From Acinetobacter sp. C32I (GTDB lineage Bacteria > Pseudomonadota > Gammaproteobacteria > Pseudomonadales > Moraxellaceae), in assembly GCF_023702715.1 (NCBI RefSeq), contig NZ_CP098480.1, positions 1,426,001 to 1,490,000 on the forward strand: DNA of 64,000 nucleotides. Reading direction: 5' to 3'. The notes beneath the pieces are model-generated. The model was not told the DNA's origin and did not search any database. It was given only the letters and a program-made list of their open reading frames with translations. Each line of letters starts with the position of its first letter. The stretch's first letter is position 1. A program made the translations under genes and the position numbers. Below are positions 31,560-39,015 of the stretch, piece by piece.

Positions 31560-31878
31560 ATTAAGACCCCTAAATCTGTATGGATTCATCTTGCTATTCT
31601 TTTTAGGGGGTCAATCAATGTATAAGCTACACATTTCTCTCAAAGCCAAATCAATTGGCTTTGTCCCCAAAAGAGGAACAGCAAACGCTGTAGAGCAATG
31701 TCCCGTATGTTTGCAACATACTGACCGCTTATACTCAATCATGATTTAGCAAGCTCTGTGCCAAGATTGATTTGATCTTGATTTTTATAGTAATTCTCTA
31801 GGTTGGATTTATTTTTAGTTGTTTTTAGATGAATCAACTGCATTGAATCTTTGGTTTTTTATGCAGTTTAATGGTGCG
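31560..31878 (-). other. Leader/promoter region of the ABC operon, with hairpins
   Basis: On the minus strand this long leader contains a perfect 7-bp hairpin GTATGTT-GCA-AACATAC near 31718 and an 8-bp hairpin AAAGCCAA/TTGGCTTT near 31660, then a C/G-rich pair of GGGGT-like and ACCCC-like stretches close to the ribosome site. A structured regulatory leader is possible; I could not match it to a known riboswitch. Confidence 0.35.
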
Positions 31879-32343
31879 TTAAGTAAGTGCAGATGCACTT
31901 TCGAAGTGCTGCTGTAAAAACAAAAACTCTAAAAAAATATTAAAATCTGCCCACTGCTTTATCATGTCTATATTGTTAGAGTTTTCCTTTATCTCAGAAA
32001 CTTTATATTCATAAACACACTCATCCTTACAATTATATAAATAGCCACCTCCGCCTTCAAAAGAGTCTAAAAATAAAAAATCCTTACTAATATTTAACGC
32101 AGCTCGAAGACTTTCTGAATTTTTCTTATAGTTTGTATTTAATAAAACCCAAGCCAACTGAATCAGCTCCCCTTTTATGGTAGGAAAATTAGGGAGACCT
32201 TCTGCATGCACGTAAAAGCTAAAAATATCTGAGCTAGGATTTATACCGTAAGAAATTAATTCGCTCCTGTATGAATCACTTTCTTCATCATGCCACCATC
32301 CTTTTCCTTTCAGATGATCAATCAACTTTACCGATATCGCCAT
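31879..32343 (-). CDS. SUKH-like (SMI1/KNR4) hypothetical protein
   Basis: A 154-residue acidic protein; the ATG at 32343 has GGGTAGAGAG upstream and is preferred over 32361. The pattern DSFEGGGGYLYNCKDECVYEY followed by WADFNIFLEFLF near the C-terminus is that of SUKH-superfamily proteins, which commonly act as immunity proteins of contact-dependent or polymorphic toxins. No toxin gene is adjacent, so it would be an orphan. Very AT-rich. The family assignment rests on the end motifs only. Confidence 0.55.
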   Translation of the reverse strand: MAISVKLIDHLKGKGWWHDEESDSYRSELISYGINPSSDIFSFYVHAEGLPNFPTIKGELIQLAWVLLNTNYKKNSESLRAALNISKDFLFLDSFEGGGGYLYNCKDECVYEYKVSEIKENSNNIDMIKQWADFNIFLEFLFLQQHFESASALT

Positions 32344-32452
32344 TTTCTCTCTACCCTTCATACAAACTTGAGTACAGATTGCATGTTAGTGAATACCGCA
32401 ATCCATACCAGTATGTAGTTTTTCCTAAAAATAATCATGATTTAACCTTCTC

Positions 32453-32993
32453 TCAACTTTCCCAACTCACCGTGACAAATTCACCAGTCTCCATGAATTT
32501 AACAGCAAGAATTTGATCGCTAACCTCAGGGCTAATCACATAGTCCATGACTATGGTGTACTCCTCCACACCATCACTTAACCATAAATCAGGTTGGCAT
32601 ACATATAATTATATGTTTTGCAGTCGCATCGCCAACACAAAATCAGCAATATTTACAGTCGTAACCTCACCAAATGGCATAAGTGTTTTGATAAATGACC
32701 AATCATGATGAGGTATTTGCTCAGGAATTTCTATTAAATGAAACTCAATAAAATCCCGATCCGCTTCGAGGTACCTGCCAATTTGTTGACGAGCAGTCAT
32801 GTCAAGTTTAGATAAATGCTTCAAACGACTGGCAAAGGCATCCAGTCGATGAGCGTCCATAGGTTTGTCGGATGTTGCCCAAAGTTTTGCTTGGACAGTA
32901 TGAAAACCCCTTGTGCCATAGAACATCAGCATCATCTTGACTGACTGCATCCGTATTCAATGCACCAAAATAAGAATGATCAATTTTGTTCAT
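32453..32993 (-). pseudogene. Decayed DUF2004-type gene (frameshift plus internal stop)
   Basis: Three reading-frame pieces join into one protein. From an ATG at 32993 (GAGGGAG ribosome site) the frame reads MNKIDHSYFGALNTDAV...DVLWHKGF, then shifts by one base in the GGGGTTTT run near 32915 into FHTVQAKLWATSDKPMDAHR...LAMRLQNI. A TAA at 32609-32611 interrupts, and the same frame continues LYVCQPDLWLSDGVEEYTIV...EFVTVSWES to 32453. The start, the middle DAHRLDAFASRLKHL and the ending in ES fit DUF2004 proteins. Two independent lesions argue for decay rather than a single sequencing error. Confidence 0.7.
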
Positions 32994-33008
32994 ATACTCC
33001 CTCTGCAA

Positions 33009-33390
33009 TAATTTTTAATAGCTTTGAAGGTACAACTTTAGAATCACCAAACCAACACGTTGTGTGTCTCTCTGTGAAGCGCTACATCAAATTAAATTCC
33101 AATACACTTAGCCATTAAATTTTGTCGGCATATTCAGCTCCCTTGGAGGTGCTCAAGCGTGCCTTTGTTATGGGATTAATTCTCTATTCGTAATTTATCG
33201 CCCACCAAAAAAGAATAATGAAACCGTAAATACAACGGTACATGGGACTGCAAAACCATCAATAAAGTTTTTACGAATTTGGGCGAATTTTCAAAGCCGC
33301 TATTGAGCGGATGTTTTCTGCTCTTCGTGATGTTTGAACAGGTTCTCACGCCTGTACGCAGATTTTGCTGCGTCCTTACGTGTTGCCGAT
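33009..33390. other. Gene-free stretch before the palindrome cluster
   Basis: About 380 bases with no convincing gene. A plus-strand open stretch around 33176-33302 (VIYRPPKKNNETVNTTVHG, ending NFQSRY) resembles leader-like fragments seen near phage-derived genes but has no start or ribosome site. It may be the edge of the inserted cluster. Confidence 0.3.
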
Positions 33391-33445
33391 AGTGAATCAC
33401 TATGTCAATATAATGATTCACTATTTTATAATAATTGTTTCAGAG
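33391..33445 (+). repeat. 32-bp palindrome and promoter-like sequence, copy 1
   Basis: Arms AGTGAATCACTAT and ATAATGATTCACT (one mismatch, six-base spacer) occupy 33391-33422, followed by TATTTTATAATAAT and a GAGGGG ribosome site. Copy 2 lies at 34944. The palindrome plus a TATAAT-like box just upstream of a gene start suggests a promoter with its operator. Confidence 0.75.
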
Positions 33446-33457
33446 GGGCTAAATTTA

Positions 33458-34027
33458 GTGAGTAATACAGTTAAAAACGGAAATCTACACCAGCTTTTAA
33501 ATGAAATTGATGAGCGAACTAAAATTTGTATATCGAAATATTTATCTATTTACACAAATTTCTCTAATTCCTTAAGCATTAGTCCTGTAAAAAAAGAAGT
33601 ATTATCTAAGGAAGGATACGACGAAGTAAAAAAAATTATTGTAGATAAACATATTTTGATTAGAGAGAGTATTAATACTTTAATTCCAGTTCTTCGCGAA
33701 TTCACCATTAACATCCCAGCCTACAACAGCCAATTAAAATCCTATATAGAACAGTTAATCAGCATTGAAGTTTCTTTAGTTAACCTCCAAAATAAAATAG
33801 TTATTTTTTCCGAAAGTCTATCCGAAACTGCACTTGGTAATGACAGCTTAAAAAACTCCATTACCACAAAAATAAATGAACTAACCCAATCTTTAAATAA
33901 GAAAAATTCTGAAATTTTAAATATTCTTGATGATTTAATTTACAATTTAAACTTAATAAATAATGAAATAACAATCAAATCAAACCAAAGAAATGGAGAA
34001 AGAAAGATTCAACATACGACTAAATGA
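33458..34027 (+). CDS. Coiled-coil hypothetical protein (gene A of the cluster)
   Basis: A 189-residue protein from a GTG at 33458, with GAGGGG nine bases upstream; an upstream TTG at 33365 would read through the palindrome and is rejected. It is almost entirely helical and rich in Lys, Ile, Asn and Ser, with heptad-like stretches (IEQLISIEVSLVNLQNKIVI; INELTQSLNKKNSEILNILD). No membrane span or catalytic motif is visible. Its end overlaps the next gene by 35 bases, implying coupled expression. AT content is much higher than the purine genes around it. No family recognised. Confidence 0.65.
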   Translation: MSNTVKNGNLHQLLNEIDERTKICISKYLSIYTNFSNSLSISPVKKEVLSKEGYDEVKKIIVDKHILIRESINTLIPVLREFTINIPAYNSQLKSYIEQLISIEVSLVNLQNKIVIFSESLSETALGNDSLKNSITTKINELTQSLNKKNSEILNILDDLIYNLNLINNEITIKSNQRNGERKIQHTTK

Positions 34028-34922
34028 GGAAGTAGCATTAATTACGAAGACATACGAACATGAATTTAGAAACCTAGCAGAAAGTTTTAGAAATCAAATT
34101 AAAAACTTAAAAATAGATTCTGAAGATATATCCAAAGCTAATGAGCTATTAAAAAACAACAATGAATCTGGTCTAAAAAGACTAGCTGAATTGAATAACA
34201 AAATACAAAATATTGAGCTAGAATATTCAAATACAGTTAGAAGCGAAAGCGACAATATAAAACTTGAAATACAACAAGCTAAATCAGACTTATCTAAGGA
34301 AATAGAAAAATTATATACTGAAGCTAATAATAAAATTGATTCAATAAAAAAAGGTCATGCAGATTTTATTAGTCTTGTTGAGAAAGCAGGAATTTATGAA
34401 CTAACCCAAAATTATGACAAAAAAGCTAAAGAGGAAAAAAAAGACTATTTATTTTACAGTCGGGCAACGATGATCTCTATTATTTTTGCAATTCTAACAA
34501 CTGTTGTTGTTATTGGAATACCAGTTATAGAGCATTGGAAAGCTAACCCACCGATAGATACTAACTATTATACAATAATGGCTCGATTAACAATTTCATT
34601 TATGTTTTTTATTTTAGCAGTATATACGTCTAGACAATCAGCCAAACATTATGAATGCTATCAAGAGAATCATAGAACCTTCCTGCAACTTGCAGCACTT
34701 GAACCATTTATGGCACGTATGACCCATGAAGAACAAATGGAAATTCGCAAAGGTCTTATACCAAGTTATTTCAATCAATCTAGTGAAGGGAAGTTTTCAA
34801 GCAAAGGGGATGATGTAGATTTATCTTCCAATATGACAGCAATCGTTTCTAAGCTTATTGATAGAATCCCATCGAGGAAAGAAGAATCAACCACTACAAG
34901 AACAGATAATGCAACTAGTTAA
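33993..34922 (+). CDS. Coiled-coil protein with two C-terminal membrane spans (gene B)
   Basis: A 309-residue protein. Residues about 10-150 are predicted coiled coil (FRNLAESFRNQIKNLKID, IQQAKSDLSKEIEKLYTEA). Two hydrophobic segments follow at about 159-178 (TMISIIFAILTTVVVIGIPV) and 197-212 (ARLTISFMFFILAVYTS), then a conserved-looking tail with ECYQENHRTFLQLAALEPF and MTHEEQMEIRKGLIP. The plan, a long cytosolic coil tied to a membrane hairpin, recalls membrane effectors of phage-defence systems. It overlaps gene A by 35 bases. No named family. Confidence 0.65.
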   Translation: MEKERFNIRLNEEVALITKTYEHEFRNLAESFRNQIKNLKIDSEDISKANELLKNNNESGLKRLAELNNKIQNIELEYSNTVRSESDNIKLEIQQAKSDLSKEIEKLYTEANNKIDSIKKGHADFISLVEKAGIYELTQNYDKKAKEEKKDYLFYSRATMISIIFAILTTVVVIGIPVIEHWKANPPIDTNYYTIMARLTISFMFFILAVYTSRQSAKHYECYQENHRTFLQLAALEPFMARMTHEEQMEIRKGLIPSYFNQSSEGKFSSKGDDVDLSSNMTAIVSKLIDRIPSRKEESTTTRTDNATS

Positions 34923-34943
34923 TCTAAAATGCTACTTTCTTAT

Positions 34944-35009
34944 AGTGAATCATTATGACAATATAATGATTCACTATTTTTATAATAATCTGTTTTAGTG
35001 AGGGATTTC
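34944..35009 (+). repeat. 32-bp palindrome and promoter-like sequence, copy 2
   Basis: The perfect arms AGTGAATCATTAT and ATAATGATTCACT with a six-base spacer occupy 34944-34975, followed by TTTTTATAATAAT and GTGAGGG before the TTG at 35011. Similarity to copy 1 runs through the palindrome, the TATAAT-like box and up to the ribosome site, about 55 bases. Confidence 0.75.
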
Positions 35010-35010
35010 T

Positions 35011-35835
35011 TTGGCACTTTTATTCTTTTTACTGTTTTTGGTTTCCATTACTGCAACCTTCGTTTTATTAATAAAACCATCATTGTCCGCTATACATGGG
35101 AAATCCCCATTAAGTCGAGGCAAGATTAGTCTTTATGGGATTGCCCTAAGTCTTTTTTCAGTTGCTATGATTGGTGTTTTTGCTCCCCCTGTTGAAGAAG
35201 GGACCAAAAAAAGTACTGAAAAATCACTAGAAAATACCAGTGCACCTAAGGTTGAAAAAGTACAACCAAAAGTAGAAAAAACACAGGCTGAAATTGACCA
35301 GGAAGCTGAAGATAATAAACCACCGTTTGAACTTACCGATGACGCTAAGCAAAATGCAGCCAATGCTCAAGCACATTATAAAAAATTAGCTGATGAAGAT
35401 CGTCCCCACTTTAACTGGCCAAAAGTAGATTATACAAAGGCTGTTGCCAAAGTTGATTTACGTAATGATAGAGCCATTTTAAAGGCAGTTGGCAAGACAG
35501 TCGCTGACCAAGAGGAAGTAACCAACCAGAATGGCGAGCCAATGCAAAGCTATTACTTCAGCAAGGATCTTGCTAATTATCTACAGGTTGATCTGAGCCG
35601 TGAATATGTTGATGTCTCTTGGGCATTTGATGCCAAAGATCCAGCTAAGGCGACTGGAGTGTTTGATGATGGCCAGCAGATCACCCGTGCATTGTTAGGT
35701 GGCCAAGCTGGTAGTGCACTTTATGAAAATATTGCCAAGGGTGGCAAGGTGGATGAATTGCATCTGGAGGATGGTACCGTGATTAAAAATGCACGTTGTG
35801 GCCAGTCGATGTGTCGTTATCAGGTGGCTAGATAA
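35011..35835 (+). CDS. Membrane-anchored hypothetical protein (gene C)
   Basis: A 274-residue protein from a TTG at 35011 with GAGGG six bases upstream. Two hydrophobic segments (about 3-21 and 40-57) are followed by a low-complexity Lys/Glu/Pro linker (about 64-100) and a globular C-terminal domain containing NWPKVDYTKAVAKVDLRNDR and ending RCGQSMCRYQVAR, with two cysteines. Base composition of the C-terminal half is closer to the chromosome than that of genes A, B and D. It is three bases before gene D. No family recognised. Confidence 0.65.
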   Translation: MALLFFLLFLVSITATFVLLIKPSLSAIHGKSPLSRGKISLYGIALSLFSVAMIGVFAPPVEEGTKKSTEKSLENTSAPKVEKVQPKVEKTQAEIDQEAEDNKPPFELTDDAKQNAANAQAHYKKLADEDRPHFNWPKVDYTKAVAKVDLRNDRAILKAVGKTVADQEEVTNQNGEPMQSYYFSKDLANYLQVDLSREYVDVSWAFDAKDPAKATGVFDDGQQITRALLGGQAGSALYENIAKGGKVDELHLEDGTVIKNARCGQSMCRYQVAR

Positions 35836-35838
35836 AAG

Positions 35839-36765
35839 ATGAATATGAACAACCAAATTCCACAAGATAAAAAAGAGAAATGGTTAATACCTTTATTTAT
35901 GATAGGTATTGTACTTATATGGTTTTTATTCCCTTGGACTTTATCACATTTAGCTAAATGGCTTGAGTGGAATATACAAAACAGTGATGATACCAACTTC
36001 GGTACTTTTGGCGATACATTTGGCGCACTGAATACACTTTTTAGTGGCCTAGCTTTTGCAACACTTATCATCACATTAATTCTTCAGAGAAGAGAATTAC
36101 AGTTGCAAAGAAAGGCTGTTGAGGCACAACAGTTAGAAATTCAGAAAAGTAATGATATAGCTGAACAGCAAGTAACTATTACAGAGCAGCAAGCTGAACT
36201 TTTAGAGAAACAGATTAGAGAGGCTCAGGTTCAGAATTTCTTTAATATACTTTTTCCTTTATTTAACAGGAGAAAAACTTACTACGAAGCAGCTGATAAA
36301 TTACCAGTATTTGGGCCATCTTCTCATGTAGCGAATATTCAGAGTGAAAGCACCTTTAAGACATTACACATGGGAGCATTAAAAACATATGATATTTTCC
36401 ATAAAACTTATAGAAATGATTTTCTTTACAAAGATGATGTTTTAAAAATATTAAAAAAAATGATTCATGAAACTTCACCATTCCTTCTCTCATATAGTTA
36501 TTTGAAAGGCTCAAAATATAAAGAATATTTCTTATATATCATTAATTTTATTGAGAACTTTGAAGGAATTAATGATAAAGACAGAGACGTAGCATTGTCT
36601 ATTTTTATATCCGATTTTAGTATGAGTGAACTTTACGTCATTTCTCTTTTAACTATTGAAGATGAAATACTCATGGAAAAAGTTATTAAATACAAAATTT
36701 TTAATTCATTTATTGAAAATGATCATGATGGGAAATCAGTATTCAGCCAATTATTTTCTGAATAA
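35839..36765 (+). CDS. Putative phage abortive infection protein (AbiC-like, gene D)
   Basis: A 308-residue protein with two N-terminal membrane spans (about 14-35 and 64-82), the second in GDTFGALNTLFSGLAFATLI, then LILQRRELQLQRKAVEAQQ leading into a coiled coil to about residue 130 and a soluble helical domain (NFFNILFPLFNRRK onward). This is the plan and signature of the putative abortive infection family related to lactococcal AbiC (PF16872). Members are scattered in defence regions; the mechanism is not established. A second ATG is at 35845. It is coupled to gene C and ends at a terminator. Confidence 0.75.
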   Translation: MNMNNQIPQDKKEKWLIPLFMIGIVLIWFLFPWTLSHLAKWLEWNIQNSDDTNFGTFGDTFGALNTLFSGLAFATLIITLILQRRELQLQRKAVEAQQLEIQKSNDIAEQQVTITEQQAELLEKQIREAQVQNFFNILFPLFNRRKTYYEAADKLPVFGPSSHVANIQSESTFKTLHMGALKTYDIFHKTYRNDFLYKDDVLKILKKMIHETSPFLLSYSYLKGSKYKEYFLYIINFIENFEGINDKDRDVALSIFISDFSMSELYVISLLTIEDEILMEKVIKYKIFNSFIENDHDGKSVFSQLFSE

Positions 36766-36790
36766 AAGAGCCGCTTAACGGCTTTTTTAT
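36764..36790 (+). terminator. Terminator after the AbiC-like gene
   Basis: AGCCG and CGGCT form a short stem extended by A/T pairs and followed by six T, directly after the stop at 36765. Confidence 0.75.
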
Positions 36791-36939
36791 TCAGTTTCTT
36801 TCTTATATCCAGCAAGCCACATTTGGGGTGCTTCAGCCCAACTTCTTAAACCGTGTGGTTCTTGAACCCCATGATATGCATTCATAAACCGTTCCCGCCA
36901 CTCAGCTTGAGACCTAACCTGATTAAAGTCTGCTGTGCT
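36787..36939 (-). pseudogene. Displaced C-terminal fragment following the SUKH gene
   Basis: Directly after the TGA of the 36940 gene the same frame stays open for 50 codons, reading STADFNQVRSQAEWRERF, then HGLRSWAEAPQMWLAGYKK to a TAA at 36787. The last residues of the intact gene (YTADFPELTCKPRWECE) align with the first of the fragment (TADFNQVRSQAEWRERF), as do the underlying bases. It looks like a second version of the gene's 3' end left behind by recombination, not a working gene. Confidence 0.55.
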
Positions 36940-37647
36940 TCATTCACACTCCCAACGAGGCTTGCAAGTTAACTCAGGAAAATCTGCTGTGTAAATCTTT
37001 TGTCTTTGCTCTGAAAGCGTACTTTCAAGTGCCAATGTCAAATCAAGACTAGCAGCAAACGCTGCTGCCTCTTGATCTTCGCTATCAGAATAATTTAAAT
37101 TTACCGCAGCCAAACATGTGATGACCTTTTGTAAACGATCTGCCAACTCACGCGGCAAGACCTTAGCTACATTCGACATATCTGCCAATAAACATTGATC
37201 AGCTTCAGCTTCTAAAAAACCATCTTCTAATAAATGCTCATTATCTGCACATGCTTCGAGCAGTAGCAGATACGCAAACTCGGCAAAAGATGCTGCATAC
37301 CAAGTTACTCTTCCTGAATCATGCGTAATCAATGCTACAGGCAATGTATCTTTAGCAAGCGGAATCAACGCATAGCAATCACCTGCTCCGGTACAAGCAA
37401 ACGGTAAAAAGCGAATACCCTGTTGATACTTTGGGTTCAGCCAATCAGTTTGAATACCTCTCGCATCCTCTGCACTTATCCATTCAAAATCATAAGTACT
37501 GATCAAAGGTGGAGGTGAGTTCAACATGCGTTCACGCCAAGTTTCTGCCCAATTGTCATAACGTGTTGATCCGTCTTCCAACCAATTGGCAAGCATCGCT
37601 GGCAAAATGATCCCTATATGATCTGCAAGCTGCTGAAAATTGCTCAT
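36940..37647 (-). CDS. SMI1/KNR4 (SUKH) family protein
   Basis: A 235-residue protein; the ATG at 37647 (MSNFQQLADHIGIILPAML) has AAGGAA upstream and is preferred over 37737. WLNPKYQQGIRFLPFACTGAGDCYALIP is a good match to the SUKH core, where a glycine-rich turn follows a Phe/Leu strand. The protein is acidic. Families of this kind are often immunity proteins for secreted toxins, and the duplicated C-terminal fragment downstream supports recombination typical of such loci. No toxin is adjacent. Confidence 0.7.
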   Translation of the reverse strand: MSNFQQLADHIGIILPAMLANWLEDGSTRYDNWAETWRERMLNSPPPLISTYDFEWISAEDARGIQTDWLNPKYQQGIRFLPFACTGAGDCYALIPLAKDTLPVALITHDSGRVTWYAASFAEFAYLLLLEACADNEHLLEDGFLEAEADQCLLADMSNVAKVLPRELADRLQKVITCLAAVNLNYSDSEDQEAAAFAASLDLTLALESTLSEQRQKIYTADFPELTCKPRWECE

Positions 37648-38001
37648 ATGACAACATTCCTTCTGAAGGTCATTTGATTCAGTGACATCCTTTAGACAGA
37701 TTAAAGTCCACTGTTGTTTGAATTTCAATATTTTCACAAGAAATTGCAGTGTTTCTCCTCATATTGACCTATTTCACTTTATAAACTGGCACAAAAAGTG
37801 CTTCATTCTTTCTGTCAGAGTAGAAGCGTTCAGCATAGTCAGTCACATCGACTGTTATGTGGGTCATTGCTCAGAAATCAGCTCACTTTTTTTTATAAGC
37901 TTTCTCCTATGGAAAAAGTGCAGCTCTTTTTTGAATGTGACCCCGTCTCTTTCAATCTATTTGATTGGGTCACGGTTTATCCAAAAGATGAGGTTGAAAA
38001 T

Positions 38002-39015
38002 ATGAATAGCGCCAATATGACGGCATTAGCTGAACAAGACTACAGCTTAGAAGAACTGCAAAAAGAAGCTCGTATGGGAGCTTTGGGTCAAGAAACATTT
38101 AAACGCGAAGTTCGGGTGATTGATTTATCAGACTTTGAACAACGTAAGTATGAAATCGCGGAGCAGCTTTGGGCCGCTGCTACTGATATCGGTTTTTTTC
38201 AGGTCTCGCATCATGGTATTCCACTTGAGCAAATCCAAACTGCATTTGACATGACACAACAGTTTTTTGCTCTACCTGAACCTGTCAAAGCACGCTACCC
38301 ACTTAATCGAAATGCAGGTTGGGAAAGTAAGGCTCAAGTTCGTCCATCAACCAGTACCCCAGACCAGAAAGAATCCTACCAAATCACTCGCCCACGTATG
38401 GATGGACTTTATCCAACCGAGCAAGAGCTGCCTGACTTTAAAAATACCATGCTTGAATTTGAACAAGCGTGTTGGCACGTGGGTATGAAAATACTCTCCT
38501 GTTTTGCTTATAAACTGGGTTTTGCAGATAACTTTTTTAGCCTTGCTCATGATCCTGAACAAGACAGCTATCAAAGCACTTTAAGAATGTTGCATTACTA
38601 TGCTATTGATCCTGCTCTGAAAGATCAATTAGGTCTATGGCGTGCAGGTGCACATACCGATTTTGATTGTTTAACCTTATTGTTTCAACGTAACGGTCAA
38701 GGTGGTCTGCAAGTGTGCCCAGGTAAAGATATGGAGCAACAACAATGGACCAGTATCGAACCGCGGGATGATGTGATCACTTGTAATATCGGCGATATGT
38801 TAATGCGTTGGAGTGATGATCAATTACCTTCTAATTTCCACCGAGTCAAAAATCCGGAAGCAGATGAATACCAAGGAGCACGTTATAGCCTCGCCTTCTT
38901 CTGCCAAGCCAATGAAGATGTGCTAATTGAAAGCCCACAAAAGAAATATCCAGCAATTACAGCCAAGGAATATTTAAAACAAAGAATTAGTGCGAATTTT
39001 AAAGGGAAATACTAA
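38002..39015 (+). CDS. Isopenicillin N synthase-family 2-oxoglutarate/Fe(II) oxygenase
   Basis: A 337-residue oxygenase from the ATG at 38002, with GAGG eight bases upstream. The iron ligands are His218 and Asp220 (AHTDFDCLTLL) and His280 (NFHRVKNP); Arg294-X-Ser296 (RYSLAFF) binds the co-substrate carboxylate. The N-terminal VRVIDLSDFE and GFFQVSHHGIP are standard for the family. It is flanked by accessory genes on the left and by urate genes on the right. A role in purine oxidation is possible but only suggested by location; other small-molecule substrates are equally compatible. Confidence 0.85.
   Translation: MNSANMTALAEQDYSLEELQKEARMGALGQETFKREVRVIDLSDFEQRKYEIAEQLWAAATDIGFFQVSHHGIPLEQIQTAFDMTQQFFALPEPVKARYPLNRNAGWESKAQVRPSTSTPDQKESYQITRPRMDGLYPTEQELPDFKNTMLEFEQACWHVGMKILSCFAYKLGFADNFFSLAHDPEQDSYQSTLRMLHYYAIDPALKDQLGLWRAGAHTDFDCLTLLFQRNGQGGLQVCPGKDMEQQQWTSIEPRDDVITCNIGDMLMRWSDDQLPSNFHRVKNPEADEYQGARYSLAFFCQANEDVLIESPQKKYPAITAKEYLKQRISANFKGKY

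Follow-up and report, generated by a model that had tools for sequence, protein, structure and literature searches.

What is a tightly packed group of coiled-coil and membrane-protein genes doing in the purine region of an Acinetobacter chromosome? The group lies in a 64,000-nt stretch of Acinetobacter sp. C32I (NZ_CP098480.1, positions 1,426,001 to 1,490,000), which is referred to here as the window. A first-pass annotation had placed four genes, A to D, at 33391-36790 and proposed them as a candidate defence system. It was found that the cluster is carried by a piece of phage DNA, that A and B correspond to the pieces of one broken gene (AB), and that AB, C and D belong to a variable slot of P2-like Acinetobacter prophages. 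The cluster is best explained as stranded cargo of such a phage hotspot, whose most likely role is the protection of the lysogen from other phages.

A fragment of a P2-like prophage stranded in the chromosome

Comparison with related genomes showed that 33121-36902 is a 3.8-kb piece from the interior of a P2-like Acinetobacter prophage and lies stranded in the chromosome. Its parts match the P2-like prophage (L071) of Acinetobacter gyllenbergii CIP 110306 (genome G125), in which the same layout of palindrome, AB, palindrome, C and D was found. The region 35392-36901 runs from the end portion of C through D into the following phage gene and matched L071 9295-10801 with 94.7% identity (blastn). 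Between the two left-most pieces of the insert about 1.4 kb of L071, including the repressor gene, is missing. At the empty site of genome G142 the host positions 33120 and 36903 adjoin with one base between them, and the insert is also absent from the site in G024, G120, G125 (on another contig) and G071; in this comparison of the locus across Acinetobacter, all five relatives read at the site lacked it. The interval delimited at first lies inside the foreign DNA, which is larger. The features are as follows:

33121-36902 (no strand assigned): phage-derived insert with host DNA on both flanks, from matches to the G125 prophage (L071) and the empty site in G142 (L131)
33121-33292, minus strand: remnants of a phage regulatory region; 33121-33169 corresponds to L071 5583-5631 and 33169-33292 to L071 7025-7148 (blastn)
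33378-33437, plus strand: promoter-like hotspot leader with a palindrome (core 33389-33424), from an alignment of 26 leaders and the repeat
33458-34027, plus strand: A, an open reading frame (ORF) with a GTG start; N-terminal piece of the broken AB, hypervariable coiled-coil part
33993-34922, plus strand: B, ORF; C-terminal piece of AB with a coiled coil, two membrane spans and a strongly conserved end
34942-34977, plus strand: second copy of the palindrome, before C, 95% identical to the first over 39 nt; same arrangement in G125
35011-35835, plus strand: C, ORF; N-terminal anchor (two spans) and a conserved domain of about 130-150 amino acids (aa) with two invariant cysteines
35839-36765, plus strand: D, ORF; two membrane spans, coiled coil and a C-terminal part; the family includes putAbiC members
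36758-36794, plus strand: strong terminator-like hairpin closing C-D
36777-36901, minus strand: remnant of a phage 81-aa gene that is Ogr-adjacent in G125 (blastn match, junction read)

No structural gene, repressor or Ogr was detected in 33121-36902. The phage-like DNA is confined to this interval, which does not lie inside a P2-like prophage in the genome of C32I. This genome also gave no match to the 183-aa gene that flanks the cargo in other prophages (matched in 12 of 149 genomes of the genus, E up to 1e-10) or to Ogr (27 of 149, E up to 1e-6). Together with the edges of the insert, these missing matches identify an orphan fragment whose edges are not those of a prophage. A transposon insertion was rejected, as neither junction displayed terminal repeats or a site duplication by eye. 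A prophage bounded by att sites was likewise rejected, since the gene reading as an integrase by eye sits far from the hotspot in G125. The PLSDB plasmids contained no match to the cluster DNA or to the AB protein. Sequence searches of the PDB returned coiled-coil or weak, chance-like matches only.

The cluster had also been described as more AT-rich than its surroundings. This holds for AB and D, with G+C contents of 0.29 and 0.30, and not for C, whose value of 0.41 is within the range of the host flanks (0.44 and 0.41).

The broken AB gene and the proteins C and D

The four ORFs are contiguous, on one strand and tightly spaced, as first reported, with an overlap of 35 nt between A and B, a gap of 3 nt between C and D, and a gap of 88 nt between B and C that holds the second palindromic repeat. 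They represent three genes, since A and B are, on comparison with their homologues, pieces of a single gene of about 500 aa that is intact elsewhere. Residues 1-173 of A align to residues 1-179 of the homologue P0005 (BLASTP, 34% identity, E 5e-20), and B aligns to positions 185-490 of the AB family profile. Of 119 homologues of B (the best 120 of 147 listed, one of which is the window's own), 110 reach a length of at least 440 aa, and on this basis programmed frameshifting between A and B was rejected. When A was used alone as query it found only itself, in a search whose length filter hides full-length relatives.

AB is intact in G125 and G079 and, with 487-553 aa, in 10 of 11 viral loci; the remaining one, L157, has 412 aa and lies near a contig end. 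It is also broken in G048, where it forms two ORFs, and in G033. The G033 copy (L074:10989-12446) carries two in-frame stops and is located near a contig end, beside metabolic genes. As read here, the AB of C32I is broken and probably without activity.

The conservation of AB is very uneven, with a mean majority fraction of 0.25 over residues 1-190 and of 0.72 over residues 306-470, the two-span end. Simple hydropathy analysis gave two spans in B, in line with its initial description as a coiled coil with two membrane spans, two in D and two at the N-terminus of C. No good fit to AB was obtained in Pfam, nor to the window pieces in NCBIfam and PADLOC. B resembles the SLATT-type effectors in having two spans and in a weak match to NF033634 (E 0.076), but it scores far under the cut-off of that model (13 against 41 bits), and SLATT models are absent from the 20 Pfam families matched by 56 AB members (E up to 0.01).

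C had been described as a membrane-anchored protein with an unknown domain. Two cysteines of this domain are invariant among the homologues. By simple rules, the N-termini of 114 homologues comprised 49 with a lipobox, 62 with a membrane anchor and 3 with neither, and C is accordingly classed as a lipoprotein or a protein with a membrane anchor. In the lipoprotein forms the C domain would lie outside the cytoplasm. The predicted model of C displayed block means of at least 92 in predicted local distance difference test score over residues 131-274; comparison with the PDB by VIA-align revealed no clear structural relative. The C of G125 is otherwise close to that of the window but differs from its anchor (window 35011-35391) at the N-terminus. 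G135, L160 and L161 carry a related anchor in fusion with other domains: cargo proteins seem to exchange their anchors.

D had been called AbiC-like. This holds through its relatives only; the window protein itself did not match PF16872 (putAbiC) at E up to 1. Within the family, 5 of 12 members matched the model at E up to 0.1 (best 1.5e-8), and the relative in L159 (L159:6069-7196) scored 29.3 bits, above the curated cut-off of 22.

A variable slot in P2-like Acinetobacter prophages

In P2-like Acinetobacter prophages the cargo occupies a variable region between the 183-aa gene, which stands beside the repressor, and Ogr. Both boundary genes flank the cargo in 35 of the 40 loci that were scripted, and these collapse to 28 distinct hotspots. 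Loci L157, L163, L164, L171 and L143 were left out for one boundary lacking in the script, although the Ogr of L143 was matched in the Ogr search. Outside the hotspot count are L155 (which resembles L164), L182, L216 and a second phage type (L196-L202, L204-L213), as well as loci of genus genomes without a slot or split between contigs (L074, L076-L079, L083-L086, L088-L090, L093-L095, L097-L100 and G073). Searches for AB, C or D supplied most of the loci, and therefore presence counts are biased and gene order is less so.

AB is present in 9 and D in 13 of the 28 hotspots. The profile of whole C detected 20, and a profile of its domain detected 16; the latter is the final count, since the former took in proteins with the anchor and without the C domain (L160, L161, L186 and L188). 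The order AB, C, D is kept without violation in the 28 hotspots. In the nine with AB, seven have the C domain and two an anchor-only protein, directly after AB in eight of the nine, and wherever C or its anchor-only relative occurs together with D, D follows directly (7/7). Every viral contig in which AB was found (11) is P2-like; in 7 of them the protein that follows in the slot carries the C domain, and in 2 more it has just the anchor of C. When intervals were located by their boundary genes (11 readable intervals in genomes of the genus), AB was found in 3 (G125, G079 and G048), C or the anchor in 6 and D in 4.

The ties between the families are loose. AB accompanies the C domain in 7 of 16 hotspots and is lacking in the other 9; the C domain is present in 4 of the 13 D hotspots and absent from 9, 3 of which have the anchor-only relative. 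Unrelated genes often occupy the first position of the slot. Since the C domain and D are often found without AB, the N-termini of C are swapped and first-position genes are unrelated, the families behave as interchangeable modules and not as one system, and the view of A to D as a single four-gene system finds no support here. In the second P2-like phage type (L204, L205 and L213) the repressor is followed by a D homologue, and an AB-like gene lies in a different slot, next to a gene of 213 aa.

The cargo is preceded by a leader with invariant sequence blocks. The leader search gave 28 matches, of which 2 were dropped as off-site, and the remaining 26 copies, two of them from the window, were aligned. 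The search expression for the leader matched 21 of the 28 distinct hotspots and missed L158, L159, L176, L181, L183, L191 and L203; the leaders of L158 and L164 are less alike. By eye the leader looks like a sigma-70 promoter, and a consensus promoter scanner did not list it. An RNA hairpin formed by the palindrome was considered and rejected: 87.9% of the cells pair, a value reached by 202 of 500 shuffles, and the covariation score was reached by 117 of 500. For this reason the claim is restricted to the primary sequence of the leader.

Defence families share this slot. The slot of L183 contains an AriA-like AAA ATPase and an AriB-like DUF4435 protein, both exceeding the Pfam scores given for PARIS by Rousset et al. 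(PMC9122126). L181 has a similar pair, with a weak match for its second gene (22 bits, no Pfam match). In G028 (L081) a DarT protein and a DarT1-associated NADAR antitoxin were detected, with the palindrome in front. In G097 the second gene downstream of C encodes a PDC-M53A protein, the interval of G098 has a PDC-S21 protein on the other strand, and HNH_5 proteins recur in the slot.

Probable function and alternative explanations

Anti-phage cargo is the best reading of the cluster because the slot holds, elsewhere, PARIS-like AriA/AriB and a DarT1-NADAR pair. The link to defence proposed at the outset is strengthened by this context and by the conserved relative order, while anti-phage activity as such is something we infer. 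In lysogens the hotspot would be transcribed from its own leader promoter, separately from the lytic genes, as the leader suggests, and the cargo proteins would act against other phages at the cell envelope, by exclusion or abortive infection. AB would sense infection by means of its hypervariable N-terminal coiled coil, and its conserved two-span end would be the acting part, probably damaging the inner membrane. C would be an envelope protein with its domain facing the periplasm, where it could block DNA entry or adsorption, and D a two-span protein whose family counts putative abortive-infection proteins among its members. In C32I the genes C and D are intact, and AB, being broken, is probably inactive.

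Several observations weigh against protection from other phages as the role of this cargo. PADLOC models (E up to 1e-5) matched at least 4 of 34 cargo proteins, or 5 if the 339-aa protein of L175 is scored by its near-identical G097 copy. In a control, at most 6 of 52 non-hotspot proteins matched, to other kinds of models: DEDDh (2), PDC-S48 (2, and 1 more to a second model) and a homing endonuclease (1). The control comprised 52 of 57 proteins, the 5 from the reversed L082 being left out. There is no clear enrichment of cargo over other phage proteins, so a defence label drawn from PADLOC counts alone was dropped and the argument rests on the PARIS-like and DarT1 pairs. In the window, A, C and D gave no PADLOC match and B a weak one (E 0.002 or worse). 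The 50,697 annotated phage records of INPHARED contained no match to the cluster DNA or to the AB, C and D proteins. Finally, the ratios of nonsynonymous to synonymous substitution rates (dN/dS) against G125 (D 0.26; C, over the part compared, 0.21) mostly span time in phages, and that of D counts 8 synonymous and 9 other differences.

It could be argued, then, that these are lysogenic-conversion genes of another purpose, such as envelope modification, stress tolerance or lysogen fitness, and merely co-housed with defence genes. The exported or anchored domain of C without a clear fold match, the many slot genes without a defence label and the failure of PADLOC counts to separate cargo from other phage genes all agree with it. 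This explanation is nevertheless rather unlikely, given the PARIS-like and DarT1-NADAR pairs as slot-mates, the putAbiC members in the D family and the variable front and conserved membrane end of AB.

A bolder version of the phage-protection reading would make AB, C and D three new exclusion families acting jointly across the lysogen envelope, in an undescribed hotspot, with AB as cytoplasmic sensor and two-span effector, C as periplasmic blocker and D as AbiC-like membrane protein. Taken as a whole this is doubtful. The recount by domain gave looser ties than the whole-C count, which lowered the standing of joint action as well as that of an obligate system, discussed below.

The insert might alternatively be degrading junk, a functionless prophage scar. 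AB is disrupted and the core of the phage is missing, neither Ogr nor the 183-aa gene was matched in the genome at the thresholds used, and the other AB copy beside metabolic genes (G033) has in-frame stops. On the other hand, C and D are intact, the leader and terminator are kept, and from the dN/dS values, on few changes, C and D look selectively kept. Junk was accordingly judged unlikely.

That AB, C and D form one obligate multi-gene defence system appears improbable. The fixed order in 28 distinct hotspots, the position of D directly after C (domain or anchor-only) in 7/7 and the same arrangement in G125 speak for it. Against it stand the AB count in C-domain hotspots (7/16) and the C-domain count in D hotspots (4/13, with anchor-only in 3 more), which are biased as presence counts, most loci having been found by searching for these families, together with the swapped C N-termini and unrelated first-position genes, which point to interchangeable modules. 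A role in housekeeping or transport within the purine region, suggested by the location between two xanthine riboswitches, can be practically discarded, as it is contradicted by the empty sites in the five relatives and by the P2-like context of all 11 viral-contig AB loci.

The two riboswitches (RF03054) face outward around the site, at 31688-31741 (minus strand) and 37813-37877 (plus strand). The host DNA between them (31590-33120 and 36903-37737) differs in its small genes among the five relatives read, and it is therefore variable in its own right, aside from the phage insert. It includes an ORF at 36943-37737 that is weakly SUKH-like (E 0.003), and a gene at 32609-33008 (minus strand) read here as two ORFs (66 and 113 aa), which is a single ORF of 188 aa in G120 and of 183 aa in G142. 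The 405-aa ORF at 37798-39015 begins upstream of the riboswitch, so its true start is probably later, as in L134.

Superinfection-exclusion lipoproteins are carried by other phages, for example Llp of T5 and Cor of phi80. Compared by description only, C is likewise exported and prophage-carried; it is larger and often membrane-anchored. Anti-phage hotspots are known for E. coli P2-like phages and P4 satellites (Rousset 2022, PMC9122126; Vassallo 2022, PMC9519451). PARIS is reported in this work from the hotspot of P4 and from hotspots in prophages of Vibrionaceae and Bacillus; Acinetobacter is unmentioned in the main text of PMC9122126. As far as these sources describe them, the E. coli hotspots share with the present slot a cargo that varies, that includes transmembrane proteins and that is enclosed by conserved phage genes. 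The Acinetobacter slot differs in the phage group, in its position from the 183-aa gene beside the repressor to Ogr, and in the frequency of the membrane families AB, C and D. No description of the slot was found in the literature by title and start of abstract, and a 2025 paper on Acinetobacter defence hotspots may already cover it.

With a phage-borne hotspot of fixed gene order and shared leader in Acinetobacter, undescribed anti-phage genes could be picked by their position. AB, with its hypervariable front and near-invariant membrane end, is directly testable as a sensor-effector. The stranded insert of C32I is an example of phage cargo that outlives its phage at a new chromosomal site, and defence genes of chromosomes may arise in this way among others.

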